Source: Gaetbulibacter sp. 4G1 (GTDB lineage: Bacteria > Bacteroidota > Bacteroidia > Flavobacteriales > Flavobacteriaceae). Taken from it: a stretch of 64,000 nt of DNA. Both the position numbers and the translations under genes were made by a program. Numbering within the stretch: the first letter of the stretch is position 1; every line of letters begins with the position of its first letter. Below the pieces are notes generated by a model. The model saw nothing but the letters and a program-made list of their open reading frames with translations. It searched no databases and was not told the origin of the DNA. Of this stretch, positions 37,570 through 64,000 are shown in pieces. The stretch spans positions 124,001 to 188,000 of the forward strand of contig NZ_MDVN01000022.1 in the NCBI RefSeq assembly GCF_002741945.1, read 5' to 3'.

Positions 37570-37676
37570 TTAAATTAATTTTTTTAGTAAATAGTTTAAA
37601 ACTTAAAGGGTGCTATAAAATGCACCCAATAAGCCTCTATTTGAGTTAGTCAAACTCTTATTAATTGTTCTTTACT

Positions 37677-40736: not shown

Positions 40737-40758
40737 TGTTTGATAATTTATTTTTTAG

Positions 40759-40827
40759 CAAAATTATAGTTTGTTTGGCTTGCTTAATAATGCCTGTTTA
40801 TCCAAAATAAATACTATATTATCCAAA
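40759..40827 (-). promoter_or_regulatory. Promoter of the hydroxyproline operon with 21-bp-spaced direct repeats
   Basis: On the minus strand a -7 box TAATTTTG (plus-strand 40759-40766) lies 22 bp before the DHDPS-family ATG. Upstream of it the plus strand carries TTATCCAAA twice, at 40798-40806 and 40819-40827, exactly 21 bp apart, the two-helical-turn spacing used by AraC-type activators. No good -33 box is present, as expected for an activated promoter. TATATTATCCA (40815-40825) recurs exactly at 30683-30693, upstream of the trans-3-hydroxyproline genes. Confidence 0.65.
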
Positions 40828-40915
40828 TACGAAATTTTAACAATTAATTAGAGTATTATTTATGTATTTTTGAATGAGATGTGTTTATTGAGGCACTGAA
40901 ACAAATTTAATACAA

Positions 40916-42665: not shown

Positions 42666-42734
42666 CAAAAGTATCAGCGATTGACGTCTTTTTTGGGTGT
42701 AATTCGTTGGCTGGAGAGGTTGTGTAGATGAATG
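42666..42734 (-). promoter_or_regulatory. Site A: 21-bp-spaced direct repeat and -7 box
   Basis: TTCGTTGGCTG (42703-42713) and GTAGATGAATG (42724-42734) have starts 21 bp apart. On the minus strand a -7 box TACTTTTG (plus-strand 42666-42673) lies 29 bp from the near edge of the pair, upstream of the GT2 gene. The same arrangement, with 28 bp, occurs at site D (62412-62479). The pair also lies 84-115 bp upstream of the plus-strand operon at 42818 and may serve both directions. Confidence 0.65.
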
Positions 42735-42817
42735 AAAACTTTACTTCGATAAATACCACTCGTCGAAACAAAACTTTGTTATATCTTTAATTCGTAGAAA
42801 AGAGCTTACATTTTTCA

Positions 42818-45800
42818 ATGAAAGAAAAGTCAAATAAATATTTAATTGTTGCTATACTTATAGGATTAGCATTTCATGGAACTTCTATATTTTTTACTTT
42901 AGAAGAAACATACGATGCCCTGATTCATTTGTTTTTTGCAGATCATTATGCCAATAGTTGGTTTGAGCCTTGGAATTATAAATGGTATACAGGGTTTACG
43001 GTAATGAGCTATCCGCCATTAGTGCATCAAGCTATTGCTGCATTTTCTTTTATTGGAGGTTTAAAATTTGGGTTATTTACTATAGCTATAATTAGTGTAA
43101 TATTATTTATAACTGGAGTTTATCGATTTTCTTTATTAATCACTTCAAATAAAGCTGTTGCAGGTTACGCAGCAATTTTATCTGTATTTTCTTCTTCTTT
43201 TGTAGAGACTTTACACTTATTTGGACAATTACCAAGTATTATTGGTATATCTATTTTAATGCATGCCTTACCAGAAATTTATTTGTGGTTAAAAACGGGA
43301 AAATATCGATTTCTATTTACTTCATTATCCCTAATAGCTGTTACTGTAACATCACACCATGTAACTCCTATTTTTGGTATGGTCTTTTTTATTTTTCCAC
43401 TAATAGGCATGGTTATTATGGACGAATCAAGAGAACAGGTTGGATCCATAAAAGCTGTTACAATTAAAGCCTTTCTTAATAGTTTCTTTAAATTATTTAA
43501 GCGTATTATAAGTTTTGGGTTAAGTTCTCTTGTTATAATTATAGGATGTATACTGCCTTATTGGATAAATTCAAAAAACAACCCTATTACCCAAGTTCCT
43601 ATCCCTCATGGATCTCGCGATAATTTTTTAGAAATATCCTCTTCAGGGTTGGTGTTCTTCTTAATTCCTTGGGGTGTACTACTTATACTTCTTCCTTACA
43701 TTTTTTATAGATATTACAGTAAACGCTATTTGTTTTTTGGTTTATCAATAAGTATATTATTTATTTTAGGAACTGGAGGCACAACGTTTATCCCTAAGTT
43801 TGTGTTAGGTGAAACCGCCTATAATATTTTAACACTTGACCGATTTACACTTTGGGCATCAATCATGTCTTTACCTCTTTTTGGGGAATTTACGTATCGA
43901 TTTGTTCAAGGCGATTTAAAAACTATAATTCAAGACAAATTTGGAGCTATTTATCATCGAATTATTGGTGGACTACTCGCCAGCTTGGTTATTTTCATGA
44001 CTATTTTTACCATGAGTTTGGGGTATTTTAGACCTTCACAACCTCAGCAAATTAAAATGTTGCCTATTGTTAATTTTCTTAATCAAGATCAGCATGACCA
44101 ATGGCGCTATATGACTTTAGGTTTTGGCGATCAAATGGCTTGGTTATCTACACAAACTAATGCCTTAAGCGTTGATGGCAACTATCATTCAGCAAGACGA
44201 TTACCAGAACTCACAACACGGCCTATTGAGCGCCTTGAGAACTCCAAATTTAAAGGTTTAGAAGGCATTGGGTCTTTACAACAGTTTTTAACTACCCCAG
44301 AAAAGTATCATCTTAAGTATGTCTTTTCTAACGATAAGTTTTACGACCCCATATTATATTTCTGTGGGTGGCAGCGTTTGCGTCAGTTAGAAAATGGTAT
44401 TCAAGTATGGGAAAAGCTAAATGTTCCACCTATCTCATCCATTTTACCTAAAGAAGAGGTTGCAACATGGCAAAAACTACTTTGGGGTATTGTTCCATTT
44501 TTAACTATTATTATAGCTTTTATATTAAATATCCAATGGCTATGGATTCGAGCTTTAAAAGCAAGATCTAGAACAATTCCTGAGTATTTGAGTTTTGAGA
44601 ATAGTTATAGTTTGTTTCCAAAAGGGCTTCTTAAAACAACACATATTTGGGCTGTATTTTTGGTTATCGTTATAGGCTATAGCGTCTATAAATTCTATAT
44701 AAAAAATGATGCTCATCATTCGCCAGAAAATGCCATATTGGCTTATTATGATGCACTTGATTTTAAAGAATTTGAAAAAGCACATCATCTTATTAACCCA
44801 GAAAGCAATATGCCAATTGCTCAATATATGCTAGAGATTTCGGTAACTGACGGCTTATTGAGTTCGTATGCCAAATTAGATGCTATAGAAACCATTATTA
44901 CTAATAAGACAGACCGTTTAGCAACTATTAAAGTAAATACCAATTGGATTACACCTTTAGAAAAAATTAAGAAAACCAATTATAAATCTCTTATTAAATT
45001 AAATAGTAAATGGTATATCCAACCAGAAGATATTGATTTAGATTTACCACCAGACCAGCTATATTCTGATAATTCCACTGGATATTTTAATCAAGGTCGT
45101 AGACGCATTACTACAGAACAAACCCATCATGAAGATGTTTTGAAACAACCAGTTTTAGAAATACTTTCAGCTAAATTGATAAAACGTGATAATAGTTATG
45201 CTTTAATTGGAGAAATTCAAAATATAGATAATGTTCCAGCAGATGTTGTTTTAAAAGGCACTTTATATAATGATGATGATAAAGAACTAGCAACCTTTAA
45301 CGCCAAATATCATGTAAAACATAAATTACTACCAAAGGAAGTTACTTCCTTTAAAATTAATTTTGAAGGCATTGCATGGTCTAAAACTCAAGATTCTATA
45401 CCTAAAACATTTAACCCTGATGAGTTTACACCTATTGAATTTAGTGAGCAACCTACTAAATTCAACTTACAAGTTGCTGGTAATGTTTCTGGATCTGATT
45501 TGTATAAAAAAGTTACTATTAGTGATTTAAATATCTCTCCAGAAGCTATTAGCGGTAAATTATTCAATTCTGGATTAAAAGAAATTACCATTCCCCAATT
45601 ACTTATTACCTATTATGATGAAAACAAAAATATGATTTGGGTAGATCATTTATTTCTAGAAGAAGGTATCAGACAGCAGCGGCAACAAGGTTTTGAATAT
45701 CTACTTTTAAAAGACAAAAACCTCAACATAATAACTGATAATATGGAAAACTGTTTTGTAAATGGTTTACCAAATGAAGATATTTCTAATAAAATAGTAC

Positions 45801-45907
45801 CCAATAGAATTAAAAACCAAGCACATGTTGCTTTACAAACCATAGAACACGCAAATTATAAGTTTATAAAAATAGAAACTAATAGTTATATAGGAAATTC
45901 AAATTAA
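42818..45907 (+). CDS. Large GT-C-like polytopic membrane protein with periplasmic C-terminal domain
   Basis: A 1029-residue protein with about 12 transmembrane helices in the first 410 residues, one helix near 550-570, another near 615-635, and a soluble C-terminal part (640-1029). The first loop has LEETYDALIHLFFADHY with an acidic residue where GT-C glycosyltransferases keep the catalytic Asp. The region resembles the 6-pyruvoyl-tetrahydropterin-synthase-related membrane domain family, but a firm assignment is not possible. The C-terminal part looks like an NTF2-type domain followed by beta-rich modules. Its stop overlaps the next start (TAATG), so it heads a three-gene operon for polymer assembly or export. 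Confidence 0.75.
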   Translation: MKEKSNKYLIVAILIGLAFHGTSIFFTLEETYDALIHLFFADHYANSWFEPWNYKWYTGFTVMSYPPLVHQAIAAFSFIGGLKFGLFTIAIISVILFITGVYRFSLLITSNKAVAGYAAILSVFSSSFVETLHLFGQLPSIIGISILMHALPEIYLWLKTGKYRFLFTSLSLIAVTVTSHHVTPIFGMVFFIFPLIGMVIMDESREQVGSIKAVTIKAFLNSFFKLFKRIISFGLSSLVIIIGCILPYWINSKNNPITQVPIPHGSRDNFLEISSSGLVFFLIPWGVLLILLPYIFYRYYSKRYLFFGLSISILFILGTGGTTFIPKFVLGETAYNILTLDRFTLWASIMSLPLFGEFTYRFVQGDLKTIIQDKFGAIYHRIIGGLLASLVIFMTIFTMSLGYFRPSQPQQIKMLPIVNFLNQDQHDQWRYMTLGFGDQMAWLSTQTNALSVDGNYHSARRLPELTTRPIERLENSKFKGLEGIGSLQQFLTTPEKYHLKYVFSNDKFYDPILYFCGWQRLRQLENGIQVWEKLNVPPISSILPKEEVATWQKLLWGIVPFLTIIIAFILNIQWLWIRALKARSRTIPEYLSFENSYSLFPKGLLKTTHIWAVFLVIVIGYSVYKFYIKNDAHHSPENAILAYYDALDFKEFEKAHHLINPESNMPIAQYMLEISVTDGLLSSYAKLDAIETIITNKTDRLATIKVNTNWITPLEKIKKTNYKSLIKLNSKWYIQPEDIDLDLPPDQLYSDNSTGYFNQGRRRITTEQTHHEDVLKQPVLEILSAKLIKRDNSYALIGEIQNIDNVPADVVLKGTLYNDDDKELATFNAKYHVKHKLLPKEVTSFKINFEGIAWSKTQDSIPKTFNPDEFTPIEFSEQPTKFNLQVAGNVSGSDLYKKVTISDLNISPEAISGKLFNSGLKEITIPQLLITYYDENKNMIWVDHLFLEEGIRQQRQQGFEYLLLKDKNLNIITDNMENCFVNGLPNEDISNKIVPNRIKNQAHVALQTIEHANYKFIKIETNSYIGNSN

Positions 45908-47121
45908 TGACATTAAAACCTACATATCTTTTAATAATTACATTGGTGTTTTCATCATTCGTATCATCTGTAGATGAATCGATTATTAATAACAACATTC
46001 AATTACTTACTTCAGAAACTGAGTTTGAGGCAGGAAACACTATCGCTTTAACATTTTCAAATACTAATGCTTCTAAACCTAACTTATATTTAAGTAATAG
46101 TTATGGCTCTACAATTATTAACCCTCATCTAGAAAATGGTATTTTAAATTATCAACTTCCCAAAACCTTCAGCAATAAAACGGGGGTAATTAGCTGGAAT
46201 TTATTAGGTGATGATACACCGCTTTCTGGTAAGCTTAATATATATCCAAAACAAGAAGTAACAACTATGGAAACGTACTTAGGCCCTCCAAGTATTGAAG
46301 CTGGAGGAGCAGATTATACCATGTTAGTTGTTATTCCAAAAGATATTTACGATAACCCTTTAAAAGATGGTACGGCGGTTTCAGTAAAATATCAATTTTC
46401 AGAAAATAAGAGTAAAGATGTAGTTTACATGAAAAATAGTATCAGCTATAGAAATATATATTCAGAGACAAAAACAGGTAGAATCCTTATCAGTTCTGAA
46501 TGTCTTAGCAAAAACTCAAAAGAATATGATGTTAATGTTATGCCAGCAATTCCAACAGATTTCACCATAACCTACAATCGTAATCACGAGTATGCCGATG
46601 GGAATCAAATCACAAATTTTTCAACCTCTATTATAAAAGACAAATACGGCAATATTGTTAGCGATGGTACTTATGTTGATTTTTTTATAACCAATGCTTC
46701 TAACCATATTCTCAAAACGTCTGGCAGCACCATTAATGGCATTGCAAAAGCTAAAATGATTCATCCAGACCACGAAGAAAATTGGGTGGTTAAAGCCTTT
46801 ATAGGAGGGATGGCTGAAAGTGATAGCTTATCATTAATTTACAAACAGGCTATTTTAGATTTTCAAATTGCTTTTTCTGATGATAACAGAACGATAAGCG
46901 TTGGCCCTTTAAAAAGTTTTATGAACCAAATGATTCCTGATGGTTTAGAAGTAAAGCTACACATCTACCAAAACGATAAAAAAGTTAAAACACTTTTTAA
47001 AAGCACATTTGAAGGTTATACCAATTTTAAATTGAGTTCTGATATTTTTACAAAAGGCACTTATACTTTTAAAATAGAAACTGCTGGTATTCAAAAAATA
47101 TATCAAAATATAAAACTATGA
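45907..47121 (+). CDS. Secreted Ig-like beta-sandwich protein of the polysaccharide locus
   Basis: A 404-residue protein with a signal peptide (about 1-20, TYLLIITLVFSSFVSS) and no further membrane segment. The mature part reads as three or four beta-sandwich modules; EAGGADYTMLVVIPKDIYDNPLKDG and ANGNQITNFSTSIIKDKYGN-like stretches resemble invasin/intimin-type Ig repeats. No catalytic motif is seen. One-base overlap with the gene before (TAATG) and ATGA overlap with the glycoside hydrolase after it indicate a single functional unit. It may be a periplasmic scaffold for polymer export. I do not recognise a named family. Confidence 0.7.
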   Translation: MTLKPTYLLIITLVFSSFVSSVDESIINNNIQLLTSETEFEAGNTIALTFSNTNASKPNLYLSNSYGSTIINPHLENGILNYQLPKTFSNKTGVISWNLLGDDTPLSGKLNIYPKQEVTTMETYLGPPSIEAGGADYTMLVVIPKDIYDNPLKDGTAVSVKYQFSENKSKDVVYMKNSISYRNIYSETKTGRILISSECLSKNSKEYDVNVMPAIPTDFTITYNRNHEYADGNQITNFSTSIIKDKYGNIVSDGTYVDFFITNASNHILKTSGSTINGIAKAKMIHPDHEENWVVKAFIGGMAESDSLSLIYKQAILDFQIAFSDDNRTISVGPLKSFMNQMIPDGLEVKLHIYQNDKKVKTLFKSTFEGYTNFKLSSDIFTKGTYTFKIETAGIQKIYQNIKL

Positions 47122-48635
47122 TAGGCATTAATAAAAACATATTACGTGCGGTTTTAATACTATCTTATATCGCTATAACTGCATTGGTTGTTTTTGGTAT
47201 TAGTAGTTTATACAGTTATCTTAACACAGGTGCAGATAGAAGTGCTATACTGCATACAGATATTAAAAAAACAGACCAGTACTTACCAAAAATTACCTGG
47301 GCGCCTTTAAACAACGAAGGTCGACCAATGAATGAGCAAACCTTAAATGCTATTGAAAATGATTATTTAGATGCTTGGTATGTAAAACATGTAGCCTATA
47401 AAACAAATAAAACCATTGGTATAGACGATTATTATACTGACAGTTCGCGTGAAAATATCTTCAATATTATTGAACAAAATAAAACTAAAAACATCACTGT
47501 TGAAGGTACAACATTAAAGCATCATCCAACCTTAGAGTTTTTTAGTGAAGATGGTCAATTAGTGGTTATAACAGATAACGATGTTGTTGAATACAAGCGT
47601 ATTTATGAAAATGAAAATATCATTTTAGAAACCACAGAAAAATCGACTTACAAAGTTATTTTATTATTAGAAGATGGGTTTTGGCGTATTCGGCATATTA
47701 TAAAACAAAAAACAGAGGTTTATAATGCAGATATTAATCCGGTTTTAAATAACATAACCAGCATAAAAGGCATTAATTATTATCCTCAAGCTACACCTTG
47801 GAATATGTTTGGCGACAAATTTGATCCAGCAATCATTACCAAAGACTTTAAACTTATTAAAGAATCTGGACTCAATAGCATTCGAATTTTTGTGCCTTAC
47901 GAAGCTTTTGGAAAAGCCAATATTAATAGTAAAAAACTAAAAAAACTTACTCAATTATTAAACTTGGCTGAGACACAACAATTAAAGGTAGTGGTGACTT
48001 TGTTTGATTTTTATGGTGACTATTCGGTACTGGATTGGACGTTAAACCAACGTCATGCAGAAACCATAGTATCTACTTTAAAAAACCATAACGCATTATT
48101 AGCTTGGGATATAAAAAACGAACCTAATTTAGATTTTGAATCCCGTGGACAAAAACACGTCATAGCTTGGTTGGATAACATGATTGATTTAGTGAAATCT
48201 GTTGATAAGAAGCATCCTGTTACTATAGGGTGGTCTAATGCTAAAAGCGCTAAGTTTCTAAAAAACAAACTGGATTTTATCACTTTTCATTATTATGAAG
48301 ATTTAGATGATTTGGAGGCAATATACAAAGGCTTAAAACAAGACATTCCTAATAAACCTATCGCAATTACCGAATTTGGCATGTCGTCATATAAAGGACT
48401 TTGGAATCCTTTTGGCAATTCAGAAAAGAATCAAGCTGAGTATCATAAACAAGCACAAAACATTTTTAGCAATAATGAAATATCATTTATGTCTTGGACG
48501 CTTTATGACTTTATAGAAATACCAAAGGAAGTCGTTGGACGACTTCCTTGGAGAAAACGGGCTCAAGAACATTTCGGATTTATAACCCAAAACGGAGAGA
48601 CTAAACCCGCTTTTAAATACATCTCTAAAGAATAG
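47118..48635 (+). CDS. Membrane-anchored glycoside hydrolase (clan GH-A, GH5/GH2-like)
   Basis: A 505-residue protein with one N-terminal transmembrane helix (about 9-34), a linker domain (about 60-205) and a TIM-barrel hydrolase (215-500). GINYYPQATPW starts the barrel; the acid/base is E335 in WDIKNEPN and the nucleophile E419 in AITEFGMS, the spacing of clan GH-A retaining enzymes. Polysaccharide secretion systems often include a periplasmic hydrolase that trims product (BcsZ, PelA, PgaB). Position in this locus suggests the same here. Substrate is unknown. Confidence 0.87.
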   Translation: MIGINKNILRAVLILSYIAITALVVFGISSLYSYLNTGADRSAILHTDIKKTDQYLPKITWAPLNNEGRPMNEQTLNAIENDYLDAWYVKHVAYKTNKTIGIDDYYTDSSRENIFNIIEQNKTKNITVEGTTLKHHPTLEFFSEDGQLVVITDNDVVEYKRIYENENIILETTEKSTYKVILLLEDGFWRIRHIIKQKTEVYNADINPVLNNITSIKGINYYPQATPWNMFGDKFDPAIITKDFKLIKESGLNSIRIFVPYEAFGKANINSKKLKKLTQLLNLAETQQLKVVVTLFDFYGDYSVLDWTLNQRHAETIVSTLKNHNALLAWDIKNEPNLDFESRGQKHVIAWLDNMIDLVKSVDKKHPVTIGWSNAKSAKFLKNKLDFITFHYYEDLDDLEAIYKGLKQDIPNKPIAITEFGMSSYKGLWNPFGNSEKNQAEYHKQAQNIFSNNEISFMSWTLYDFIEIPKEVVGRLPWRKRAQEHFGFITQNGETKPAFKYISKE

Positions 48636-48707: not shown

Positions 48708-49919
48708 TTAAGCTATAATTTGATCTTCTATTATTACTACTTCTTTTTTATTAATGATATTCTCAAATGTATGTATATACATATCTGCAATTTTTGACAT
48801 TGGATAAGCTGTTGCCGCTTTATAATTTGCTTTTTCTAATTCAACTCTATAAGCATTGTTTGAAAGAATATTTACTATGGCTTGAGCTAAACTGTTAACA
48901 CTTTCTGGTTCAAAAAATTCACCTCTGTAACCTTCATCTTTTACCAGCAGTGCCAAATCTCCTAAATCTGGCATAACTACTGCTTTACCATAACTTCCTG
49001 CCTGGTGTAATACTCCAGAGCTTCCTGTTGTAGACGTATAAGGAAAAACCACTACAGCACTTTCTTTAAATAGTTTTGGCACATCTTCTTCTGCTACATA
49101 TCCAGTAAAGGTTACACCTTCTACATGGCTATATGCTTCTTTTACAGATTCTAAATATCCTGGTGTATTAGGGTTATCTGTTCCTGCAATAACTACCTCT
49201 AAATTAAAATTTGAATGTTCTTTAATTAATTCAACAGCTTCAATCATTCCTTCCACTTTTTTGTAGGTTCCAAACTTCCCAAAAGTCATCACTTTAAAAG
49301 GTTGTAATGGCACATCATAAGCAGGTTCTTCAAGAATTTCAAAAGTACCATGAGGTATTAATTTTACATTTTTAGCATTATATTTTTCTTCTAAAATATC
49401 TACATACTTTTGCATGGTTAAAGCAACTACATCAGCTTGCAGAATTAACCTTGTAAGCGTGCTTCCTATAAATCCATAAATTTTTTGCATGATTTTGTTA
49501 TTGGTAAACCCTGCTTTTCCTAAATCTACTTCTTCTAAAATATTGTGTAACAAAACGATATTAGGTATTTTCTTTAGCTTACAAACAAATGGCAGCATTA
49601 AACCTAAAGCAGCAGCTACTTTTTTATCACCAAATTTCATAAACTGTAAATTAAATAACACAGAGTCTGGTTTAGTTTCATTAATAGCTTTAGTAACACT
49701 ATAAATGTTTTTATAGCTATTAAATGTCCAACATTCTTTTATTGTTATTTTACAACCAGCTTCGGCAAAATTGATATCTTTTTCACCTTCAGTTCTGTCA
49801 GTTAACAATACAATTTCTGTAATATCTTCTTTTTGTCTAAAGTGCTTTACTAAATGATAAGCGTATTCATTTAAAGTGACTTTACTTGGCGGATATGCTG
49901 TTACAATTGCTAGTTTCAT
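48708..49919 (-). CDS. Glycosyltransferase family 4
   Basis: Starting at ATG 49919 gives a 403-residue GT-B enzyme beginning MKLAIVTAYPP; an in-frame ATG at 49943 would add eight polar residues and is less likely. HNILEEVDLGKAGF lies in the acceptor domain; MTFGKFGTYKKVEG and the late FPYTSTTGSSGVLHQAGSYGKAVV form the nucleotide-sugar site with the family's ESxG-like region. It probably works in the cytoplasm on polymer initiation or elongation. It runs toward the convergent hydrolase gene; its upstream region carries site B. Confidence 0.9.
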   Translation of the reverse strand: MKLAIVTAYPPSKVTLNEYAYHLVKHFRQKEDITEIVLLTDRTEGEKDINFAEAGCKITIKECWTFNSYKNIYSVTKAINETKPDSVLFNLQFMKFGDKKVAAALGLMLPFVCKLKKIPNIVLLHNILEEVDLGKAGFTNNKIMQKIYGFIGSTLTRLILQADVVALTMQKYVDILEEKYNAKNVKLIPHGTFEILEEPAYDVPLQPFKVMTFGKFGTYKKVEGMIEAVELIKEHSNFNLEVVIAGTDNPNTPGYLESVKEAYSHVEGVTFTGYVAEEDVPKLFKESAVVVFPYTSTTGSSGVLHQAGSYGKAVVMPDLGDLALLVKDEGYRGEFFEPESVNSLAQAIVNILSNNAYRVELEKANYKAATAYPMSKIADMYIHTFENIINKKEVVIIEDQIIA

Positions 49920-50071
49920 AAGTTCTTTTTTTATTGTTATCAAATGGTCTTATGGTGTATCCAGTTTTTATTTATTCAGAATATGAACATTTAGTTCTGG
50001 ACGATTCATAATGATTAGTTTTTTAATTACACTGTAAATTTGGGGTTTTTAAATACTAAAAAAGGAGCATT

Positions 50072-50103
50072 ATAGACGGGTTAACATTTACTGTAGACGA
50101 ATG
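50072..50103 (-). promoter_or_regulatory. Site B: 21-bp-spaced direct repeat upstream of GT4
   Basis: ATAGACGGGTT (50072-50082) and GTAGACGAATG (50093-50103) share TAGACG and have starts 21 bp apart. The pair lies 153-184 bp upstream of the GT4 start. Unlike sites A and D, I find no TAnnTTTG box on the minus strand at the expected distance; the plus strand has TAAATTTG at 50035-50042, which points the other way. Confidence 0.55.
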
Positions 50104-50122
50104 GTAGTTTTCTTTAGGTTAG

Positions 50123-50305
50123 CCTTTTTATAGTATAAGAAGTTGCTGTGCAGATAATAAAATTAACTTCGTAGAAGATACTAAACTTGAAAAAGGGTTT
50201 TTAAAGCAATTATTGGAAGGTATGGAGAGGTTAAAGAGTCAAATAAAGTATGATAAAAATTGTGCTATAAAACTATATTTTCATTATATATATTCAAAAC
50301 TCTAA
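50123..50305 (+). other. Possible coding remnant
   Basis: A frame without ATG runs open from just after TAG (50120-50122) to TAA (50303-50305), 60 codons. Its middle reads FVEDTKLEKGFLKQLLEGM, which looks like real protein more than chance AT-rich sequence. It could be the C-terminal relic of a gene lost when the peptide/VKOR unit arrived. No family is recognised. The rest of the 480-bp gap 49920-50400 holds only site B and a terminator. Confidence 0.25.
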
Positions 50306-52560: not shown

Positions 52561-53802
52561 CTATAATCTTTTTTGATCTAGTTTAAAGAATACTACCTGA
52601 ATGATTAATAATAATATCATTGCGAAAATCTGCATGTGTACTACTTGCTCTAAACTCTCATGGTAAAAAACAACCAACACCATTTGAAGCATTCCAAACA
52701 CTCCTGAAATAATAACTGGCACATACCTATCTAAAGACAAATAGTAATACGCAAATATGTTAGAAATGGCAAACATACTTGTGGCAATAGCATACTTCCA
52801 TAAAAGCGGTGCCATAGTTATATAACTGTTACCAAATAGTAAGTTTATAATGGTTTCTGGAAAACTTAAACATGTTAAAACAATGGCAAATGAAATAATC
52901 GCTATATACCCAACGTATTTAAATAATATAGATGCTGTTTCTTTTCCTTCTTTTTTAAGTTGAACCACTGTTGGCAATAAAAGCATTACAAACATCCAAG
53001 CTATAAAGTAAACTACACGCCCTATTAAAGCTAACGAAGCATATAAACCAGCTTCATAAGATTCAAAATAATGTTTAACTAAAAGAATATCACTGTTATT
53101 AATAATGATTTGTGTCAACTCATAAAACGCCGTTAAAATAAAAAATCGTTTTACCTGTTTAGCGTGCGATACATCTATTAATGTTTTTGTTTTAAAAGCA
53201 ATCGTTTTGAATTTAAAAGGGACTAATCCAAACCCAAAAGAAATTAAAATTCCAATAGCAATAACAACTGAAGATTGAATGTTAAATAAAAATAGTAACC
53301 CCAATGTAATTAATAGGCGACTCAACATTTCGGCCTGATACGTTACAGATAATGCTTTAAATGCTTTTTTCCCTTGAAAAACACCTCTATTCACACTCAT
53401 TAAAAAATACAAAGGCACACCACAGCCAAAAATCACAAACATACTAGAGGTTGATGTATTAAACAGATGCTGTAATTGTGCAGCAAAGCATATAATTATT
53501 GCACCCATAGCAATACCTACCGCAAGCGCATTTTTATAAATTTTTGAAATAAAGATTTTAAATAATTGATTTTCGAATAGTACTGAAAATTTTGCTGTTA
53601 CTAATTGAAAAGTCATAGCTATAAAAGAGAGCACCAATAAAAATGTAATAAGTACTGCAGCATCAGCAAATTGAGCTGGCCCTAGCAAACGACCAAGAAT
53701 TAAATTATACAAATAATTCCCTCCGTTTACAGCCAGAACACTTATCATAAACAACTGTTCTGGTGTTATCTTTTTTCTCAAATTATTTGCTATTGTAATC
53801 AT
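52561..53802 (-). CDS. Oligosaccharide flippase-like membrane protein (Wzx/PST type)
   Basis: A protein of about 413 residues with roughly 12 transmembrane helices spread over its length and few charged loops. NYLYNLILGRLLGPAQFADAAVLITF at the start (G-R-x-L-G-P) is the signature of polysaccharide flippases in the MATE-like superfamily. An ATG at 53835 lies further inside the upstream gene; ATG 53802, which overlaps the STAS stop by 20 bp, leaves a shorter cytoplasmic tail and is preferred. It is coupled to two STAS genes, which is unusual, and belongs to the polysaccharide locus. Confidence 0.85.
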   Translation of the reverse strand: MITIANNLRKKITPEQLFMISVLAVNGGNYLYNLILGRLLGPAQFADAAVLITFLLVLSFIAMTFQLVTAKFSVLFENQLFKIFISKIYKNALAVGIAMGAIIICFAAQLQHLFNTSTSSMFVIFGCGVPLYFLMSVNRGVFQGKKAFKALSVTYQAEMLSRLLITLGLLFLFNIQSSVVIAIGILISFGFGLVPFKFKTIAFKTKTLIDVSHAKQVKRFFILTAFYELTQIIINNSDILLVKHYFESYEAGLYASLALIGRVVYFIAWMFVMLLLPTVVQLKKEGKETASILFKYVGYIAIISFAIVLTCLSFPETIINLLFGNSYITMAPLLWKYAIATSMFAISNIFAYYYLSLDRYVPVIISGVFGMLQMVLVVFYHESLEQVVHMQIFAMILLLIIQVVFFKLDQKRL

Positions 53803-54091
53803 TTCTAAAAATGTTATTAAGGTTTGCCGTTTCAAATTCTTTACTAATACGTTTGTTATCTTTTCCTAAAACAAATAATATCTTGCTTCGTCTTTTTGCT
53901 TTAGCCGAAATAAACTGCATAACGCTTAAAGCTCTACTGTCTATACGCTTAACTTGTTTAAGGCATATAACAATCTCGTAATACCTATCTAGCAAATTGT
54001 TAAAGTAATTGGCTACTTGGTTACTATGTGCATTTGTAAAATCGCCGTGGATTTCAAAAACACCTTTGTTGTTTATTATTTGAAAGTTCAT
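53783..54091 (-). CDS. STAS-domain protein (anti-sigma factor antagonist-like)
   Basis: A 102-residue single STAS domain: FQIINNKGVFEIHGDFT, then VICLKQVKRIDSRALSVMQF, with S52 after D51 at the position that antagonists of the SpoIIAA type phosphorylate, and KILFVLGKD near the end. It overlaps the flippase gene and follows another STAS gene by 24 bp. STAS proteins can control polysaccharide loci, as SypA does in Vibrio fischeri. No partner kinase with an RsbW/SpoIIAB fold is seen in the window. Confidence 0.82.
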   Translation of the reverse strand: MNFQIINNKGVFEIHGDFTNAHSNQVANYFNNLLDRYYEIVICLKQVKRIDSRALSVMQFISAKAKRRSKILFVLGKDNKRISKEFETANLNNIFRNDYNSK

Positions 54092-54115
54092 AATATTTAA
54101 TTTAGGTTCTATTCT

Positions 54116-54394
54116 TTATGCTACATTACTTAAATACAAATCATCATAAACCTCTTTGCATCCTGTTCCAACAACAAAAAACTTTATGTCATGTTTTACG
54201 GTATAAGCATATATAGATCGTAAAGCAATCATACCACCAGTATCAATCTCTGTTACATTTTCTATATTAATAACTAAATCTTCTAGATTTAGCATAACAG
54301 TTTCAATATGGTTTTTAAAGCTTAGTGCAGTCATTACATTAATAGCTCCAGCTGCAAAATAAATTCCGTTTTGTTCTGTAATTGTAAGTGCCAT
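54116..54394 (-). CDS. STAS-domain protein (anti-sigma factor antagonist-like)
   Basis: A 92-residue single STAS domain with VINIENVTEIDTGGMIALRS; T52 follows D51 in DTGG, close to the DSSG motif of phosphorylated antagonists. The C-terminal part has FFVVGTGCKEVYDDL. It is first in a three-gene minus-strand unit (STAS, STAS, flippase). Site C, a 21-bp-spaced direct repeat, lies 79-110 bp upstream. Confidence 0.82.
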   Translation of the reverse strand: MALTITEQNGIYFAAGAINVMTALSFKNHIETVMLNLEDLVINIENVTEIDTGGMIALRSIYAYTVKHDIKFFVVGTGCKEVYDDLYLSNVA

Positions 54395-54433: not shown

Positions 54434-54504
54434 TGTAAATATCATTTAACAATCAATAGAAAGACTGTATATTTCGGTGAGTTGCAGTTTGCTGTAGATG
54501 AATG
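54434..54504 (-). promoter_or_regulatory. Site C: 21-bp-spaced direct repeat between the STAS operon and TPR/barrel gene
   Basis: TTCGGTGAGTT (54473-54483) and GTAGATGAATG (54494-54504) have starts 21 bp apart. A degenerate -7 candidate TATTTACA on the minus strand (plus-strand 54434-54441) is 31 bp away. The right half contains an ATG (54502-54504) that opens the longest frame of the TPR/barrel gene; this makes that ATG unlikely as the real start. Confidence 0.55.
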
Positions 54505-54531
54505 AATCGATACTTATGCTTAACTTGCATT

Positions 54532-56628
54532 ATGATAAAAAACCAAATGATGCCCTTTAAATTTCGAATCAAAATACTTGTGTTATTAATAACTACTTCT
54601 ATGTATGCGCAAGACATGCAAACAGGTTTCAATTACTTAGAAACAGGTAAATATGAAGCTGCACAATCGTTTTTTGAAACCGTATTAAAAGACTATCCAG
54701 ACAACAAAATCGCTAAATTATGCTATGGTCGAGCGGTTGGATTAAACGGAAATTCGAAAGAGGCTGTTTCCATATTTACTAACCTACTAAAAACGTATCC
54801 GAACGACTTTGAAATTAAACTCAATTATGCCGAGGCTTTACTTTGGAATAAAAATTATAATGTTGCGAAACCTTTTTACAAAAATCTAATAGAAGAAAAT
54901 AATCAAAGCTTCCCAGCTCTTTTGGGTTATGCTAATACATTATCAAATCTTAAAATTTATGATGAAGCTTTAGTTTATGTCAATAAGGCGTTAAACGTTT
55001 CTCCAGGCAACCAAAATGCTTTAACCTCTAAAAAATATATGTATTTAGGTTATGCTTACCAAAACCAGCAGCAACAAAACTATACTGAAGCAGAAAGGCT
55101 TTTAAAAGAAAACCTTGAGATTTTTAAAGATGATAAAGACACCTTATTAAATCTTGCCAACTTGTATTTAATTTCAAATGAATTAGACAAAGCACGTGAC
55201 ACTTATGCTATTATTGCTAAAAGCCCAGAGAATAAAATCACAGCATTAAACGGATTAGCTTTGGTAGAACATTTAAACGGAAAAGAAAAAGACGCATTAA
55301 AAATAAGTCAACAAGCATTTAATGCTTTAGATAAAAACACGGATGAAGCCTTAATAAAACAAACCAAAGAACGCTATATACAAGCCTTAATTTGGAATAA
55401 AAAATATAAACAAGCCAAAGCCTCGATAAATGCATTAGTAAGTAAGTTGCCCAATGAAAATTGGGTTTTGGCTTTACGAGCTACTCTAAACATTTATAAA
55501 AGTGATTTTAAAAAGAGTGTTGCGGATTACAACCAGATTTTAGTGAACGATAGCAGCTCTTTTGATGGTAACTTAGGAAAGGCAAACGCCTTAAAAGCTT
55601 TAGGTTTTTATGATGATGCTTATACATCGGCAGAAAACACATTAACCTTTTATAAAAATCAAAAAGATGCTACTAACTTTATAAAAGATTTAAATACCAG
55701 TTTCACACCTTTTTTAGAAACAAAAGCCTCGTATAGTTTTGATAATGGTGATAATGAAGCTTTTTCTTTTCAAAACAATATAGCCATTCCAACGTCTACT
55801 AAATTTAAATGGTTAGCTAATTATAGTTACCGCACTACAAGCAACAACATAACTAATAACAAAGCAACATCAAACAACTTCTCTGCTGGTTTAGTGTATC
55901 AATTGCTACCCAATATAACGTTTAAGGGAACTACTGGTGTTACTTCAGCAAAAGCAAATACAAATGATTACACCCAATTATTAACTGATATATCGTTTAA
56001 CATCAAACCTTTTAAACTTCAGGTTTTAGATATTGGCTACAAACGTGAGATTCAAAATTTTAATGCTGATTTATTAGATCGGGAAATTGTAATGAATAAT
56101 TTTTATGCCAATTATAACCTGAGCACCAATTTTAATTTAGGTTGGTTTACGCAATATTATTACACATCACAAAATGATGATAACACCAGAAACCTATTGT
56201 TTACCTCGTTGTATTATAACATTTTAAGTAAACCATCATTAAAAGCAGGTTTAAATTACCAATACATTACATTTAAAAACCAAGTGCCAACAATTTATTT
56301 CAGTCCTTCAACATTTAATGCTGGTGAGATTTTTATAAACCTTATCAAAGATGAAATTATTACAAAACCTAACGAATGGTTTTACGAGTTAACCGCTGCT
56401 ACAGGTTTACAATACATTGAAGATAATAGCAGCCAAAGTACCTATAGAATACAAGGTAAATTAGGTTATAAATTTTCAGATCGGGCGCTTTTAAATGTAT
56501 TTGGAACACGTAGTAATATTGCCTCAGCCACGGCTGCAGGATTTACATTTACCGAAATTGGTTTACGTTTTAAATGGTATTTGTTTAAGAGTCCTATTTT
56601 TAGGCAGCAAACTACTTCTAGAAATTAA
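54532..56628 (+). CDS. TPR-containing outer-membrane beta-barrel protein (YaiO-type)
   Basis: A protein of about 698 residues from ATG 54532, which gives a signal peptide ending in LITTSMYAQ. ATG 54502 lies inside site C and is rejected; ATGs at 54547 and 54550 are also possible. Residues 15-380 consist of tetratricopeptide repeats (FNYLETGKYEAAQSFFETVL; KIYDEALVYVNKALNVSPGN). The C-terminal 300 residues alternate polar and aromatic strands typical of an outer-membrane barrel, close to the YaiO family. TPR-barrel proteins such as BcsC, PelB and PgaA are export pores for exopolysaccharide. The same role is inferred here. Confidence 0.82.
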   Translation: MIKNQMMPFKFRIKILVLLITTSMYAQDMQTGFNYLETGKYEAAQSFFETVLKDYPDNKIAKLCYGRAVGLNGNSKEAVSIFTNLLKTYPNDFEIKLNYAEALLWNKNYNVAKPFYKNLIEENNQSFPALLGYANTLSNLKIYDEALVYVNKALNVSPGNQNALTSKKYMYLGYAYQNQQQQNYTEAERLLKENLEIFKDDKDTLLNLANLYLISNELDKARDTYAIIAKSPENKITALNGLALVEHLNGKEKDALKISQQAFNALDKNTDEALIKQTKERYIQALIWNKKYKQAKASINALVSKLPNENWVLALRATLNIYKSDFKKSVADYNQILVNDSSSFDGNLGKANALKALGFYDDAYTSAENTLTFYKNQKDATNFIKDLNTSFTPFLETKASYSFDNGDNEAFSFQNNIAIPTSTKFKWLANYSYRTTSNNITNNKATSNNFSAGLVYQLLPNITFKGTTGVTSAKANTNDYTQLLTDISFNIKPFKLQVLDIGYKREIQNFNADLLDREIVMNNFYANYNLSTNFNLGWFTQYYYTSQNDDNTRNLLFTSLYYNILSKPSLKAGLNYQYITFKNQVPTIYFSPSTFNAGEIFINLIKDEIITKPNEWFYELTAATGLQYIEDNSSQSTYRIQGKLGYKFSDRALLNVFGTRSNIASATAAGFTFTEIGLRFKWYLFKSPIFRQQTTSRN

Positions 56629-59803: not shown

Positions 59804-62392
59804 TTAATCTATAAGTAATTTTATGGTTTTATAATTTGTATTTTGGCCTTTAAGAGTACAAAAATATAAGCCAGTACTTAAGTGTTCTCTTGTTAATGGC
59901 AAACTGTTTTGGCCTTTTCTAGCTTTAAACGTTTGCTGCTTTACAAGTACGCCTAATTGGTTGTATACCATCAATTCTACATTTTCATTGGTTTGTGCCG
60001 TAAATTTTATAGTAGTATTGGCACGCATTGGGTTTGGTACAGCGATAGCTTTATTATAATCATCCTCTGCATTTAAAGTTTCAACCGAAAGGGTATTACT
60101 TTTAGAAAAACGCACGTGTTGTAAACTCATGGTTTTTGTTTCTTCAATACCATTTTCAGCTAGCATGGTAAATACTACCGAGGTTATATCGTTTGCTGTA
60201 AACACTTCGTTGTTTATAGATTTAAACTCAGAAAACGGAATGCTATAGGCTTTAAAATCATCACTAAGCTCTATACTTGCTTTATACTGTGTTTCCCAGT
60301 GATCAATACCCTCTTTTACAAGTCTAACAATTAGAGTTCCTGTTCCTTTTGCTTCCAATTGAAAACTGTTATAGCTTGTAAAATCTAGAGGATTAAATTT
60401 TGGTGTTAATGCTCTATAAGCTGCTATATATTCGCTTGTGGTAGCAGTTAACTCAATATTTCTCTCGATAGGAAACTCATCATCATTAAATGCTTCTTCG
60501 TTAGTGTTTACCGCATAATTAGTTACTGTTGTACTAGGTGCAGCATCATCATACCCCCACGGTCCATCAGACATAAATAAATCATCAGGTGTCGCCATGC
60601 CATCTCCTATTCTAAATCCAATATCAAAAAGATTCCCTGCATCTACTTCCATATTGGTAATGTAATTTCCATCTAAATCTAATGTTGACGATACATACTC
60701 TACCGTATTGGTTTCTGTAGCTCTTAGCCCACCATCAAAAACAACAGCTTCACTTCTATTGGTATTTACAATTTGTAAATCTAATTTACCGTTATGGTAT
60801 TTTCCTTTTCTAACAAATACCGTTGGCGGTGTAGAGTTATTATAGCTTGAAATTGGTTTTTGAACTTCTAACAAACGAACCACTTCTTCTCCAAGGCGTA
60901 ACAAATCATCTAACGAGTTTGACCATATTTGGAAATTGTAAAACGGTACATTATCCTCGTATTTATCTAAGTTCCAATGACTCTCTATGGCAAAGCTATT
61001 AGCATCTTTGGTTGCCTTTGCTGATAAGCTTAAAACAAATTCTAAAGAGCCATCAATGTTTCTTATTAATGCTTTTATAAATTGTTGCTCTCTAATTTCT
61101 ATAGTAGATACAGATATTAGCTGCGCGCCTAATAATCGGTCGCAAATGTATTTTGTATGCTCATATACACCATCTTCTGTTTTAAGTGCTAGTATAGAAC
61201 CCACAGTTTCTCCTGCTCTTAAATAATCAACAGAATACACATCGGTAGCATTTGTAATACCTATTAAATCTCTAGGAGAAGACTCAATAGCTAGGTCTTC
61301 ATTAACAACTTCTAGTGGAATTAAGTCTGCCAATTGAAATCCGCCTCCTTTATTAGATGTACTTTTTCCGTACTTTGATGATTTATTGAAACTTTTAGCA
61401 GTAGTTTTATCAAACTTATAACTGCTTTTTGCTCTGTTAAAGTTTCGTTTACTAATTTGTTGAGACAGTCTATTATTACTTTCTAAACCACCTGTATTCC
61501 CTCCTGTAGTTGGTGCTTCTATAACAGGGCATGCTGCATACCCCGAACAAGAAGGGTCTTCACAATCTATTAATCCATCTCCATCATCATCAATTCCATT
61601 TGTACAATCTTCTTGTGGAACTGGTGCCGTTGGACAACGTGCGCCATCGTTTTGAGAACTAGAAGGGCCAAAAGCAAACAAATTTGAATCCATTGCATTT
61701 GTGCCATTTAAATCTTGTACATTTTGAATCACATAAATAGTCCCTGTTTGATTAGCCGATACATAGAATCGACCAGATGCATCAAAGTAAACGGCACCAT
61801 AAGTATAGTTTAATCCTGAAAGAATAGGCACTTCCCCCATGCTTTCCATAACACCTGTTTCTGCATCTATACGATATAAAATATTTGTTTTCTTTTCTAC
61901 AGTATACAGTTTACCATCTACGGCATTAAATGCCCAATCGTGAATACTTATGTTTTTTGATAAGCTTTTTGTGGTTATATATGCTCCATAATTATCAGAT
62001 TCTGGGTTTACATCTAATGCGTAATAATCTGTACCTCCTCCTTTTAAATAGTAAACGCCATTTGCACTAACATCTCCAACATAACGTCCACTAGTTGGTA
62101 ACTCGTCAACATAAAAAATGAGTGTTGAGAAGTCTTTACCAATACGAACAATAGATTTTGATGGGAAACTTAATGATCCCCAGATAAATCCATCAGTAGG
62201 ATTGTATGCTGCTGCGTTAATAGTACCTTCAGTAACATCGGTAGCAACCGAATAAGAATTCCCCGAAGCTAAGTCTATAGCATACACATCATTGTATTGA
62301 AATAAGTACGCGTTATAATCGCAATTAAAAGGCGTTTCTTGTGCGTTAATGCTTAAAACTGAAATGAATAATAATAGTAATAGTTTTTTCAT
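59804..62392 (-). CDS. Large secreted protein with N-terminal propeller-like region and type IX sorting tail
   Basis: An 862-residue exported protein with a signal peptide (about 1-17). Residues 18-255 read as a DUF6923-like beta-propeller (NDVYAIDLASGNSYSV; YALDVNPES; LYRIDAETG). A short cysteine/aspartate loop NGIDDDGDGLIDCEDPSC (about 265-285) probably binds calcium. A long middle region (300-770) has no match I recognise and contains a galactose-binding-like sandwich near 660-775. The C-terminal 75 residues (PNPMRANTTIKF, ELMVYNQLGVLV, LSTGLYFCTL) are a type IX secretion sorting domain. Its upstream region carries site D. It may be a surface or matrix protein co-expressed with the polysaccharide. 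Confidence 0.82.
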   Translation of the reverse strand: MKKLLLLLFISVLSINAQETPFNCDYNAYLFQYNDVYAIDLASGNSYSVATDVTEGTINAAAYNPTDGFIWGSLSFPSKSIVRIGKDFSTLIFYVDELPTSGRYVGDVSANGVYYLKGGGTDYYALDVNPESDNYGAYITTKSLSKNISIHDWAFNAVDGKLYTVEKKTNILYRIDAETGVMESMGEVPILSGLNYTYGAVYFDASGRFYVSANQTGTIYVIQNVQDLNGTNAMDSNLFAFGPSSSQNDGARCPTAPVPQEDCTNGIDDDGDGLIDCEDPSCSGYAACPVIEAPTTGGNTGGLESNNRLSQQISKRNFNRAKSSYKFDKTTAKSFNKSSKYGKSTSNKGGGFQLADLIPLEVVNEDLAIESSPRDLIGITNATDVYSVDYLRAGETVGSILALKTEDGVYEHTKYICDRLLGAQLISVSTIEIREQQFIKALIRNIDGSLEFVLSLSAKATKDANSFAIESHWNLDKYEDNVPFYNFQIWSNSLDDLLRLGEEVVRLLEVQKPISSYNNSTPPTVFVRKGKYHNGKLDLQIVNTNRSEAVVFDGGLRATETNTVEYVSSTLDLDGNYITNMEVDAGNLFDIGFRIGDGMATPDDLFMSDGPWGYDDAAPSTTVTNYAVNTNEEAFNDDEFPIERNIELTATTSEYIAAYRALTPKFNPLDFTSYNSFQLEAKGTGTLIVRLVKEGIDHWETQYKASIELSDDFKAYSIPFSEFKSINNEVFTANDITSVVFTMLAENGIEETKTMSLQHVRFSKSNTLSVETLNAEDDYNKAIAVPNPMRANTTIKFTAQTNENVELMVYNQLGVLVKQQTFKARKGQNSLPLTREHLSTGLYFCTLKGQNTNYKTIKLLID

Positions 62393-62411: not shown

Positions 62412-62479
62412 CAAATTTATCTCTCTATAAAGGGTTAAAATTTAATTTTCGATGGATGAAAATTAAGTGTAGACGAATG
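62412..62479 (-). promoter_or_regulatory. Site D: 21-bp-spaced direct repeat and -7 box
   Basis: TTCGATGGATG (62448-62458) and GTAGACGAATG (62469-62479) have starts 21 bp apart. On the minus strand TAAATTTG (plus-strand 62412-62419) is a full -7 box, 28 bp from the pair and 20 bp before the ATG at 62392. No -33 element is visible, as expected for an activated promoter. The pair lies 15 bp from the stop of the LytTR regulator gene. Confidence 0.65.
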
Positions 62480-62493
62480 GAATTATTAGCAGG

Positions 62494-63207
62494 TTAAAGC
62501 AAATTTAACCGTTTCATTAACTCAGGTCTGTTTGAGCGACTTACCGGAATTACATCTTTTTTAATAAGCACACTATTATCCTCAATATCTACAATTTTTT
62601 TAATATTGATAATGTAAGAACGGTGAACTTTTAAGAATAAATCATTTGGTAATTTATCTTCAATTTTTTTTAGTGTAGAATGTACTGTATAATTTTTATC
62701 CTCTGTTTTCACATTAATGTAATCGCCTTTAGCCTCGATAAGATATATGCTAGGAATATCTAACTTTATTAGTCGTCTATCAATATTTATATATAAATCA
62801 TTGGCTGTAGATGCTTCAGTTTCTGTACCAGATGGAATTACTTTATTTTCAGCAACTTTTGTTGTTTCTGCTTTCTGAATTGCTTTTTCAAAACGTGGTA
62901 AGGCAATTGGTTTTACTAAATAATCTACAATGCAATCGTACTCAAAAGCTTCAATAGCAAATTGAGAATCTGATGTTGTTAAAATTATCTTTGGTGGGTT
63001 TTTTAATGTTTGGATAAAATCAAAGCCTGTAAAATCGGGCATATGAATATCTAAAAAAATCAAGTCTACTTCATTTTGGTTTAAATATTTCATTGCTTGA
63101 ATAGCATTAGGAAATTCTTCCAAAACATTTAAACTAGGGACATTTGTGCACAATTGTGCTATAATAGTTCTGGCAGTAGCCTCATCATCAACAATAATAC
63201 AGTTCAT
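62494..63207 (-). CDS. LytTR-type response regulator
   Basis: A 237-residue regulator with a receiver domain (1-120) and a LytTR DNA-binding domain (about 135-237). The receiver has the acidic pair D7/D8, phosphorylation site D53 in FLDIHMPD and K99 in YLVKP. The output domain has LYLIEAKGDYINV-like (IYLIEAKGDYINVKT) and FLKVHRSYIINIKKI, the two strongest LytTR motifs. LytTR proteins bind two direct half sites spaced about two helical turns apart, which matches the four repeats found in the window. HPt and histidine kinase genes follow on the same strand upstream. Confidence 0.95.
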   Translation of the reverse strand: MNCIIVDDEATARTIIAQLCTNVPSLNVLEEFPNAIQAMKYLNQNEVDLIFLDIHMPDFTGFDFIQTLKNPPKIILTTSDSQFAIEAFEYDCIVDYLVKPIALPRFEKAIQKAETTKVAENKVIPSGTETEASTANDLYINIDRRLIKLDIPSIYLIEAKGDYINVKTEDKNYTVHSTLKKIEDKLPNDLFLKVHRSYIINIKKIVDIEDNSVLIKKDVIPVSRSNRPELMKRLNLL

Positions 63208-63221
63208 AAAAATAAATAATA

Positions 63222-63539
63222 TTACAAAGTATTTAGAAAGTTTGTTATAACTTGAAGAATGTTATCAAAATCTTCTTTACCAGCAGCTTTATTTTTTTTT
63301 AAATTGTTTTCAAAATCCGCAGCTATAGCATAACTCTTTTCAAGTCCTAAAATACTAATTTTATGTTTAAGTTTGTGTACATTTTCTGAAGCTTCTTTAA
63401 ATTTTTTTGCTTCTATGTTTTTTAAATAAACTGCTTTTTCATCAGGAAACTCTGTTTTTATAATTGTAATTAGCTTATTCTTAAAAACATCATCACCTCC
63501 AGAGAGTGTATCTATATAAGACAAATTAGGCCGTTCCAT
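63222..63539 (-). CDS. Histidine phosphotransfer (HPt) domain protein
   Basis: A 105-residue four-helix HPt protein. The phospho-accepting residue is H55 in NVHKLKHKISILGL, in the standard HxLK context. It lies between the kinase (2 bp gap) and the LytTR regulator (14 bp gap). That gives a kinase, HPt, regulator chain and implies a phosphorelay with a hybrid kinase whose receiver is outside the window. Confidence 0.93.
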   Translation of the reverse strand: MERPNLSYIDTLSGGDDVFKNKLITIIKTEFPDEKAVYLKNIEAKKFKEASENVHKLKHKISILGLEKSYAIAADFENNLKKNKAAGKEDFDNILQVITNFLNTL

Positions 63540-63541
63540 AA

Positions 63542-64000
63542 TTATTTTTTTAATGTAAAATGAAAGGTTGTTCCTTTTGTTGGTATAGATTCTATCCAGA
63601 TTTCACCTTTAAATAAATCTATGATTTTTTTAACTATAGATAACCCAATTCCTGTAGACTCTTTACTTTCTTGCAAGGCATGAAAAATTTTAAAAATTTT
63701 GTTATGATACTTTTTATCTATACCAATACCATTGTCTTTTATTGAAAACTGATAAAATGATTTTTGATCTTGAACATCAATTTCAATGCGTCCTTCTTCT
63801 TTATCATTAAACTTAACAGCATTGCTAATTAAATTTTGAAACAATTGCTGAAGCTTCACTTTATCTCCGTAAACTATTGGTAATGGATTTAAAGTTTCTA
63901 TTTTAATATGTTCTGGCACAAATAAAATTTGCTTTAAATCTTCTATTAGGATATTTAAATCTACTTCTTCTTTTTTAGTAGAGTCTGAACCTACACTTGA
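63542..64000 (-). CDS. Sensor histidine kinase, C-terminal part (continues past window)
   Basis: The frame is open to the right edge; only the last 152 codons are visible. A start at the GTG at 63919 is not real because the reading frame continues upstream without a stop (VDLNILIEDLKQILFVPEH). The HATPase domain is clear: N-box LIGNAVKFN-like (NLISNAVKFNDKEEG), G1 IKDNGIGID, and G2 STGIGLSIVKKIIDLF. The dimerisation and sensing domains lie beyond the window. It should phosphorylate the HPt protein next to it. Confidence 0.92.
   Translation of the reverse strand, partial: SSVGSDSTKKEEVDLNILIEDLKQILFVPEHIKIETLNPLPIVYGDKVKLQQLFQNLISNAVKFNDKEEGRIEIDVQDQKSFYQFSIKDNGIGIDKKYHNKIFKIFHALQESKESTGIGLSIVKKIIDLFKGEIWIESIPTKGTTFHFTLKK

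Follow-up and report, generated by a model that had tools for sequence, protein, structure and literature searches.

A candidate LytTR regulon joined to an H-NOX operon at a polysaccharide and type IX locus of marine Flavobacteriaceae

A direct repeat with a 21-bp period precedes four genes or gene units of a polysaccharide and type IX locus in Gaetbulibacter sp. 4G1, and a fifth copy heads a nearby operon that encodes an H-NOX protein, a histidine kinase and a LytTR response regulator. We consider it quite likely that the neighbouring REC-LytTR protein reads these repeats and activates its own operon together with the polysaccharide and type IX genes, under an H-NOX phosphorelay in which NO would be the most likely signal setting its phosphorylation.

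Repeat elements and the genes that they face

The sequence-only reading of this DNA had reported the word GTAGAYGAATG four times on a single strand. An exact count in the window, which is the whole 64-kb stretch that was analysed (G000:C21:124001-188000, from a host genome of 3.89 Mb), agrees: there are exactly four copies, all on the plus strand, at 42724, 50093, 54494 and 62469. With at most one mismatch the window contains eight matches, against a shuffle mean of 1.35, and eight was reached in none of 100 shuffles. The partner half that the same reading placed 21 bp away is present at all four sites. The minus strand shows a direct repeat of the form CATTCRTCTAC-N10-half-site with a 21-bp period and a gap of 10 bp between the 11-bp words, in keeping with the gap of about 12 bp (period of 21-22 bp) of LytTR sites. 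LytTR proteins are described in the accessible text of PMC4064291 as binding two imperfect direct repeats about 12 bp apart. The sites and the genes around them are as follows.

42703..42755, minus strand: site A, TATTTATCGAA-N10-CATTCATCTAC-N10-CAGCCAACGAA, facing GT2 and divergent from the 1029-aa membrane protein gene
50072..50124, minus strand: site B, GGCTAACCTAA-N10-CATTCGTCTAC-N10-AACCCGTCTAT, with CCCCAAATTTAC further downstream, facing GT4
54473..54504, minus strand: site C, CATTCATCTAC-N10-AACTCACCGAA, with GATATTTAC further downstream, facing STAS-STAS-flippase
62448..62479, minus strand: site D, CATTCGTCTAC-N10-CATCCATCGAA, with TAAATTTG 28 bp further, facing the type IX-secreted protein gene
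G000:C21:190654-190706, minus strand: fifth site (E), three half-sites, 2.7 kb past the window, heading the LytTR operon
41810..42640, minus strand: GT2 glycosyltransferase, 276 aa, candidate target of site A
42818..48635, plus strand: 1029-aa membrane protein, 404-aa protein and 505-aa glycoside-hydrolase-like protein, divergent from site A
48708..49943, minus strand: GT4 glycosyltransferase, 411 aa, candidate target of site B
52561..54394, minus strand: STAS (54116-54394), STAS (53783-54091) and flippase (52561-53835), candidate targets of site C
54502..56628, plus strand: TPR-repeat, barrel-like protein, 708 aa (TPR by Pfam, barrel by a weak PgaA-type match), divergent from site C
59804..62392, minus strand: type IX-secreted protein, 862 aa (DUF6923 and Por_Secre_tail), candidate target of site D

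Each of sites A to D faces a minus-strand gene or unit of the polysaccharide/type IX locus, at a distance of 62 bp from site A to the listed GT2 start, 78 bp from site C to the STAS start and 55 bp from site D to the start of the type IX-secreted protein gene. The earlier placement of the sites upstream of GT2, GT4, STAS/flippase and the type IX gene stands. Site A may possibly control the divergent genes at 42818..48635 as well, of which the motif direction gives no indication, and site C extends over the listed first codon of the divergent TPR-barrel frame. The count of half-sites was correct in part: pairs are found at all four sites, but A and B each hold a third, weaker half-site (within 42703-42755 and 50072-50124). 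The TAnnTTTG boxes said to lie 29 bp from site A and 28 bp from site D are both there, the one beyond site A being TACTTTTG, of the -7 type. Site D, which had been described as adjoining the LytTR gene, does lie 14 bases past the LytTR stop codon, but it is not the LytTR promoter; because of this position we assign it to the type IX gene as part of its promoter region. LytTR autoregulation through site D is ruled out, as the site is 3' of the LytTR gene, and the operon promoter holds the fifth site.

Random scatter of the motif through the genome had been named as a result that would speak against the regulon. The close matches in the host genome proved to be the five promoters, all within 24 kb, plus two matches elsewhere. 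At two mismatches or fewer, six of the eight rows belong to the five promoters, of which the fifth accounts for two overlapping rows, and the remaining two are C23:420697, inside a reading frame of L025, and C1:157265. Raising the limit to three mismatches gives 23 matches, where the reversed control gives 21, and the weaker matches are therefore taken as background. The genome of a relative from the same genus (G240) has sites ahead of all five units.

An NCBIfam search gave the polysaccharide genes no precise names. Between the flippase and GT4, window positions 50690-52306 encode a protein of 538 aa that matches VKOR and thioredoxin and, weakly, a C39 peptidase; in several relatives the flippase and GT4 are about 1.4 kb apart from centre to centre, and therefore adjoin directly there. 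By eye, the proline-racemase-like, aldehyde-dehydrogenase-like and DapA-like genes and the AraC-like regulator at window positions 36562-41776 resemble a hydroxyproline breakdown cluster.

The H-NOX operon and its probable input

From the fifth site the minus-strand operon reads REC (134 aa), H-NOX (179 aa), histidine kinase (698 aa), HPT (105 aa) and REC-LytTR (237 aa), followed 3' of REC-LytTR by site D and then the type IX gene. The window contains its last part.

62494..63207, minus strand: REC-LytTR response regulator, 237 aa, last operon gene and presumed DNA-binding protein (Pfam LytTR 79.5 bits, Response_reg 67.2 bits)
63222..63539, minus strand: HPT phosphotransfer protein, 105 aa (Pfam Hpt E 8.2e-5, 23.2 bits, just below the 24.6 cut-off)
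63542..64000, minus strand: 3' part of the PAS-PAS-GAF histidine kinase, 698 aa, which runs on beyond the window, with H-NOX, REC and the fifth site further upstream

Residues D53 and K99 of REC-LytTR are invariant in an alignment of 12 orthologues, and the HPT gene has an equivalent place in relatives. The Pfam scan found no receiver domain in the histidine kinase itself, for which reason the stand-alone REC may supply the missing step of a His-Asp-His-Asp chain, running from the kinase through REC and HPT to LytTR. At the head of this possible relay, the H-NOX haem protein (Pfam HNOB 6.1e-40, 137 bits), adjacent to the histidine kinase in its own genome, would be the sensor, with NO most likely setting LytTR phosphorylation and thereby matrix production. 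It closely resembles the solved chains 6bdd and 6bde, which presumably come from Kordia algicida, along all 179 residues (E 3.7e-99). The PDB molecule field of both entries reads aldolase, though the chains closely resemble this H-NOX. To our knowledge only the sensor has been studied. Both are named once in PMC7356049; a difference from the system considered here is that no regulon is given for them among the literature matches listed.

The same Pfam scan, of the five operon proteins only, gave no GGDEF or EAL domain that would point to a c-di-GMP output, which is common though not general in the H-NOX systems studied. A FIST N/C protein beside the kinase, as expected for a NosP system, is absent from the operon of this genome. 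In relatives, a FIST N/C protein and a second histidine kinase are found between the H-NOX kinase and HPT, for example at L080:12430-14627 (FIST 1.2e-38, Pfam). Judged by eye, the operon includes a 377-aa gene together with a second kinase at 7 of the 14 loci compared, and the one that was scanned (L080) is FIST. NosP, an NO sensor, belongs to the FIST family, and FIST proteins are found in H-NOX neighbourhoods, as stated in the accessible parts of PMC8738867.

How far NO is the input can be weighed from the gene content of relatives. LytTR orthologues, defined by an E value of 1e-60 or better, occur in 114 of 299 genomes of the family, and H-NOX is present in 99 of these 114. Since the other 15 lack H-NOX, NO cannot be the sole input; LytTR without H-NOX implies that other inputs exist. 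The relay could thus be real with a signal other than NO, either because H-NOX senses another gas or a redox state, or because the PAS and GAF domains of the kinase dominate. This reading would account for LytTR with sites and without H-NOX in G005 and G115, where the order is REC-HK-HPT-LytTR, and in other genomes; the kinase does carry PAS and GAF domains, and redox sensing by H-NOX is noted in the accessible text of PMC8738867. Set against it are the 99 of 114 LytTR genomes with H-NOX and the FIST-type gene, with its second kinase, in the loci described above, NosP being a FIST protein. We regard a signal other than NO as unlikely, though as carrying real weight. For NO as the input, the preferred reading, the grounds are H-NOX itself and, in some relatives, the FIST-type protein with its second kinase.

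Direction of the sites and phasing to the promoter

Site direction was read in a named set of 80 LytTR loci (the best 80 of 561, from Algibacter, Winogradskyella, Lacinutrix, Psychroserpens, Aquimarina, Dokdonia and others), which is not an independent replicate because the 80 loci partly overlap the 299-genome set. Among these best 80 of 561, 77 have a site and 75 have H-NOX; the sites number 215, against 2-9 at control lags and 21 at lag 22, and 213 of the 215 point the same way as LytTR.

In the same best 80 of 561 loci, a TAnnTTTG box lies 28/29 or 49 (28+21) bp after the site at 25 of 30 type IX sites, with none in the reversed control. The strict box occurs in 10 of 70 operon (REC) promoters (reversed control, 2) and in none of the 25 GT4 and 32 STAS1 promoters (controls, 0 and 2) of these best 80 of 561. 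The shorter word [AT]TTTG, picked after the sequences were inspected, stands at phase 10/11 modulo 21 from the site end in 22 of 30 T9SS, 23 of 25 GT4 and 16 of 32 STAS1 promoters, against 2, 0 and 0 for the reversed word; for REC promoters the counts are 5 of 70 at phase 10/11 and 15 of 70 at 9/10 (all in the best 80 of 561). As expected of LytTR sites, the elements appear to hold a fixed place just upstream of the predicted promoter.

We propose that LytTR would bind pairs or triples of 21-bp-spaced half-sites of the CCATTCRTCKAC type just upstream of promoters and activate them, that the triple sites may accept a further subunit pair, and that the regulon would comprise the LytTR operon itself (autoregulation) with the polysaccharide and type IX genes. 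We regard activation as the most probable mode, because about 28 bp separate the end of the 32-bp pair from the -7 box, an arrangement similar to that of AgrA, whose direct repeats centre near -60 according to the accessible text of PMC4227749. A LytTR protein that represses, or acts both ways at divergent promoters, with the relay releasing it, would also use these sites as LytTR sites. Such a mode is suggested by sites A and C, which lie between divergent genes, by the overlap of site C with the listed TPR-barrel start and by similar divergent arrangements in relatives. We nevertheless find it rather doubtful, as the fixed direction (213 of 215 sites, best 80 of 561) and the fixed phase upstream of the -7 box fit an activator of the AgrA kind in the portion of PMC4227749 available.

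Conservation in relatives and relation to known systems

H-NOX is encoded in 105 of the 299 family genomes. We compared 100 of the 109 H-NOX places together with the original locus, giving 101 loci, at 88 of which REC, H-NOX, the kinase, HPT and LytTR are all present. Further genes in the stretches read at the 101 loci are the TPR barrel (47), the type IX relative (36), the flippase (26), GT4 (18) and the glycoside-hydrolase-like gene (16). A matrix built from 11 halves of the Gaetbulibacter genome only was used to score the 300 bases before REC at the 97 loci with REC adjoining H-NOX, or 96 without the original locus. Of these 96 operon-upstream regions, 84 exceed the 99% quantile of dinucleotide shuffles (threshold 10.8) and 64 score above every one of 1,940 shuffles. 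At lag 21 the mean best pair score is 21.6, against 11.7 at lag 42 and 4.6-10.0 at other lags from 14 to 35. The lag-21 threshold is also passed by 5-48 of the 96 regions at other lags and by 54 at lag 42, probably because one strong half can carry the pair sum.

The 12 regions below the threshold include three operons without LytTR (L085, L091, L102) and two divergent operons whose stretch lacks LytTR (L147, L149). The score of L135 rises to 21.8 when the region is extended by 30 bases into its assigned gene, a site scoring 32.1 in L137 lies under the REC reading frame assigned there, and L062 (10.0) and L080 (9.7) fall narrowly short of 10.8; L131, L138 and L139 are also below it. At L131:15544-16051, near a reading frame that by eye resembles a transposase, there are three equal-scoring site copies at a spacing of exactly 238 bp.

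Across the 101 loci the matrix gives 158 sites, those of the original locus included, against 1.0 at control lags: 73 before REC, 23 before type IX genes, 9 before GT4, 13 before STAS/flippase, 24 before other reading frames and 16 before none. The position of site A is shared by L174 (same genus), L158, L162 and L168, the place equivalent to site B ahead of GT4 is occupied in relatives, and counterparts of site C are found there as well. Judged by eye from first residues, the other targets include UDP-sugar-dehydrogenase-like and chain-length-like polysaccharide genes. A recurring extra target are small lipoprotein-like proteins with starts such as SCSVEE or similar, which follow a site in L093, L205, L229, L238 and L240 (and L086).

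The interpretation of the repeats as a LytTR regulon, already offered in the sequence-only reading, gains support from this retention of the element before orthologous genes in many genera and from its co-occurrence with the LytTR orthologue across the 299 genomes. A strict pattern with one mismatch allowed, picked after relatives were inspected, gives 113 matches in 77 of the 299 genomes (control, 1). LytTR orthologues are present in 73 of these 77 genomes (Fisher p 1.3e-34; such p values overstate independence because genomes share ancestry) and H-NOX in 67. By gene content, the motif occurs in 66 of 99 genomes with both genes, 7 of 15 with LytTR only, 1 of 6 with H-NOX only and 3 of 179 with neither; that the motif follows H-NOX is less well supported than that it follows LytTR, as the two middle figures indicate. 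The strict pattern found no match in 41 of the 114 genomes with a LytTR orthologue, and LytTR is present and a site near it absent in G082, G123 and G238. The genomes that encode the 1029-aa protein of the polysaccharide locus have a LytTR orthologue in 74 of 76 cases. Among 196 genomes of the order, 16 have the orthologue, two of the 16 being outside the family.

Genomes in which LytTR has parted from H-NOX bear on whether another regulator binds the repeats, with LytTR a bystander. An intact LytTR lies away from H-NOX in five genomes. In G011, G172 and G227 the site precedes the relocated REC-LytTR pair, and their H-NOX operons, which are without LytTR, have no site by the matrix (scores 1.6, 3.8 and 0.4). 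G179 shows the reverse, a weak site (15.2) and a LytTR remnant at the H-NOX operon and none at the intact LytTR, and in G197 no site was found at LytTR or at the H-NOX operon. That the motif always moves with LytTR is accordingly not borne out, the idea fitting three of the five. Four of the 77 motif genomes have no LytTR orthologue; the matches in G096 and G292 fall inside reading frames, leaving G049 and G158. In G049 a strong site (31.2) stands ahead of a decayed H-NOX operon (L086:7004-10745) in which the H-NOX frame is interrupted, the FIST-like gene is cut short and the second kinase, HPT and LytTR are absent. These misfits weaken the relocation argument; they do not exclude LytTR, because a trans-acting regulator need not adjoin its own sites. 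A bystander role would be favoured by the motif genomes without LytTR and by the site that G179 keeps where the remnant alone persists, but the 73 of 77 co-occurrence, the site beside the relocated REC-LytTR in three genomes and the LytTR-type pairing of direct repeats about 12 bp apart (accessible text of PMC4064291) make it highly improbable. Chance, or a dispersed genomic repeat, could appeal to there being just four exact copies in the window, and is practically negligible in view of the shuffles, the genome scan, the matrix on relatives and the strict pattern in 299 genomes, being contradicted by the conserved position, spacing and direction.

LytTR regulons and H-NOX relays are both already known; what would be new, judging from the literature matches listed, is their joining. 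AlgR of Pseudomonas aeruginosa, which acts on alginate genes, is likewise a LytTR response regulator with polysaccharide targets, and its core CCGTTCGTC differs from the half-site CCATTCGTC at 1 of 9 bases (PMC4064291, accessible text). The AlgR core itself is absent from the sites, which have CCATTCGTC at B, D and E and CATTCATC at A and C. In the accessible text on AlgR, its sites need not be paired at 12 bp and may stand hundreds of bp upstream, whereas those described here are pairs or triples with a 21-bp period adjoining the promoter. The AgrA/VirR type shares the two imperfect direct repeats about 12 bp apart, those of AgrA lying upstream of the promoters of its own operon in the source text available. 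The present system differs in its input, an H-NOX-linked relay where AgrA has peptide quorum sensing, in the half-site and in the Bacteroidota-type -7 box. The H-NOX/kinase NO signalling of Shewanella and Vibrio is similar in having H-NOX beside a kinase, a phosphorelay and a biofilm-type output. The accessible text of PMC8738867 details outputs through c-di-GMP enzymes or quorum-sensing relays and also mentions gene expression, both for V. fischeri and generally. The chain considered here ends instead in a LytTR protein, for which polysaccharide genes carry candidate sites. Topic searches, made without the motif letters and covering few subscription journals, gave no paper on an H-NOX-LytTR system among the matches listed; the two terms occur together in a review of NO and quorum sensing, in the accessible part of which LytTR is tied to AgrA, and, by title, in a Geobacter chemotaxis paper.

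We lean slightly towards a broader view, in which a gas-to-matrix switch operates across marine Flavobacteriaceae. In this view, one HPT and one LytTR activator would be fed by one or two haem NO sensors (H-NOX, joined in some relatives by a FIST/NosP-like protein with a second kinase). The activator would act on 21-bp-period pairs or triples at its own, polysaccharide and type IX promoters, bypassing c-di-GMP, and its DNA code would differ by one base from the AlgR code. Cultured genera, Algibacter and Winogradskyella among them, would make a test of this prediction straightforward. The system supplies a specific DNA code, a set of genes and a candidate signal through which a large marine bacterial family may control its extracellular polysaccharide, and, if true, NO gas may directly control the production of slime (polysaccharide) in many related bacteria.
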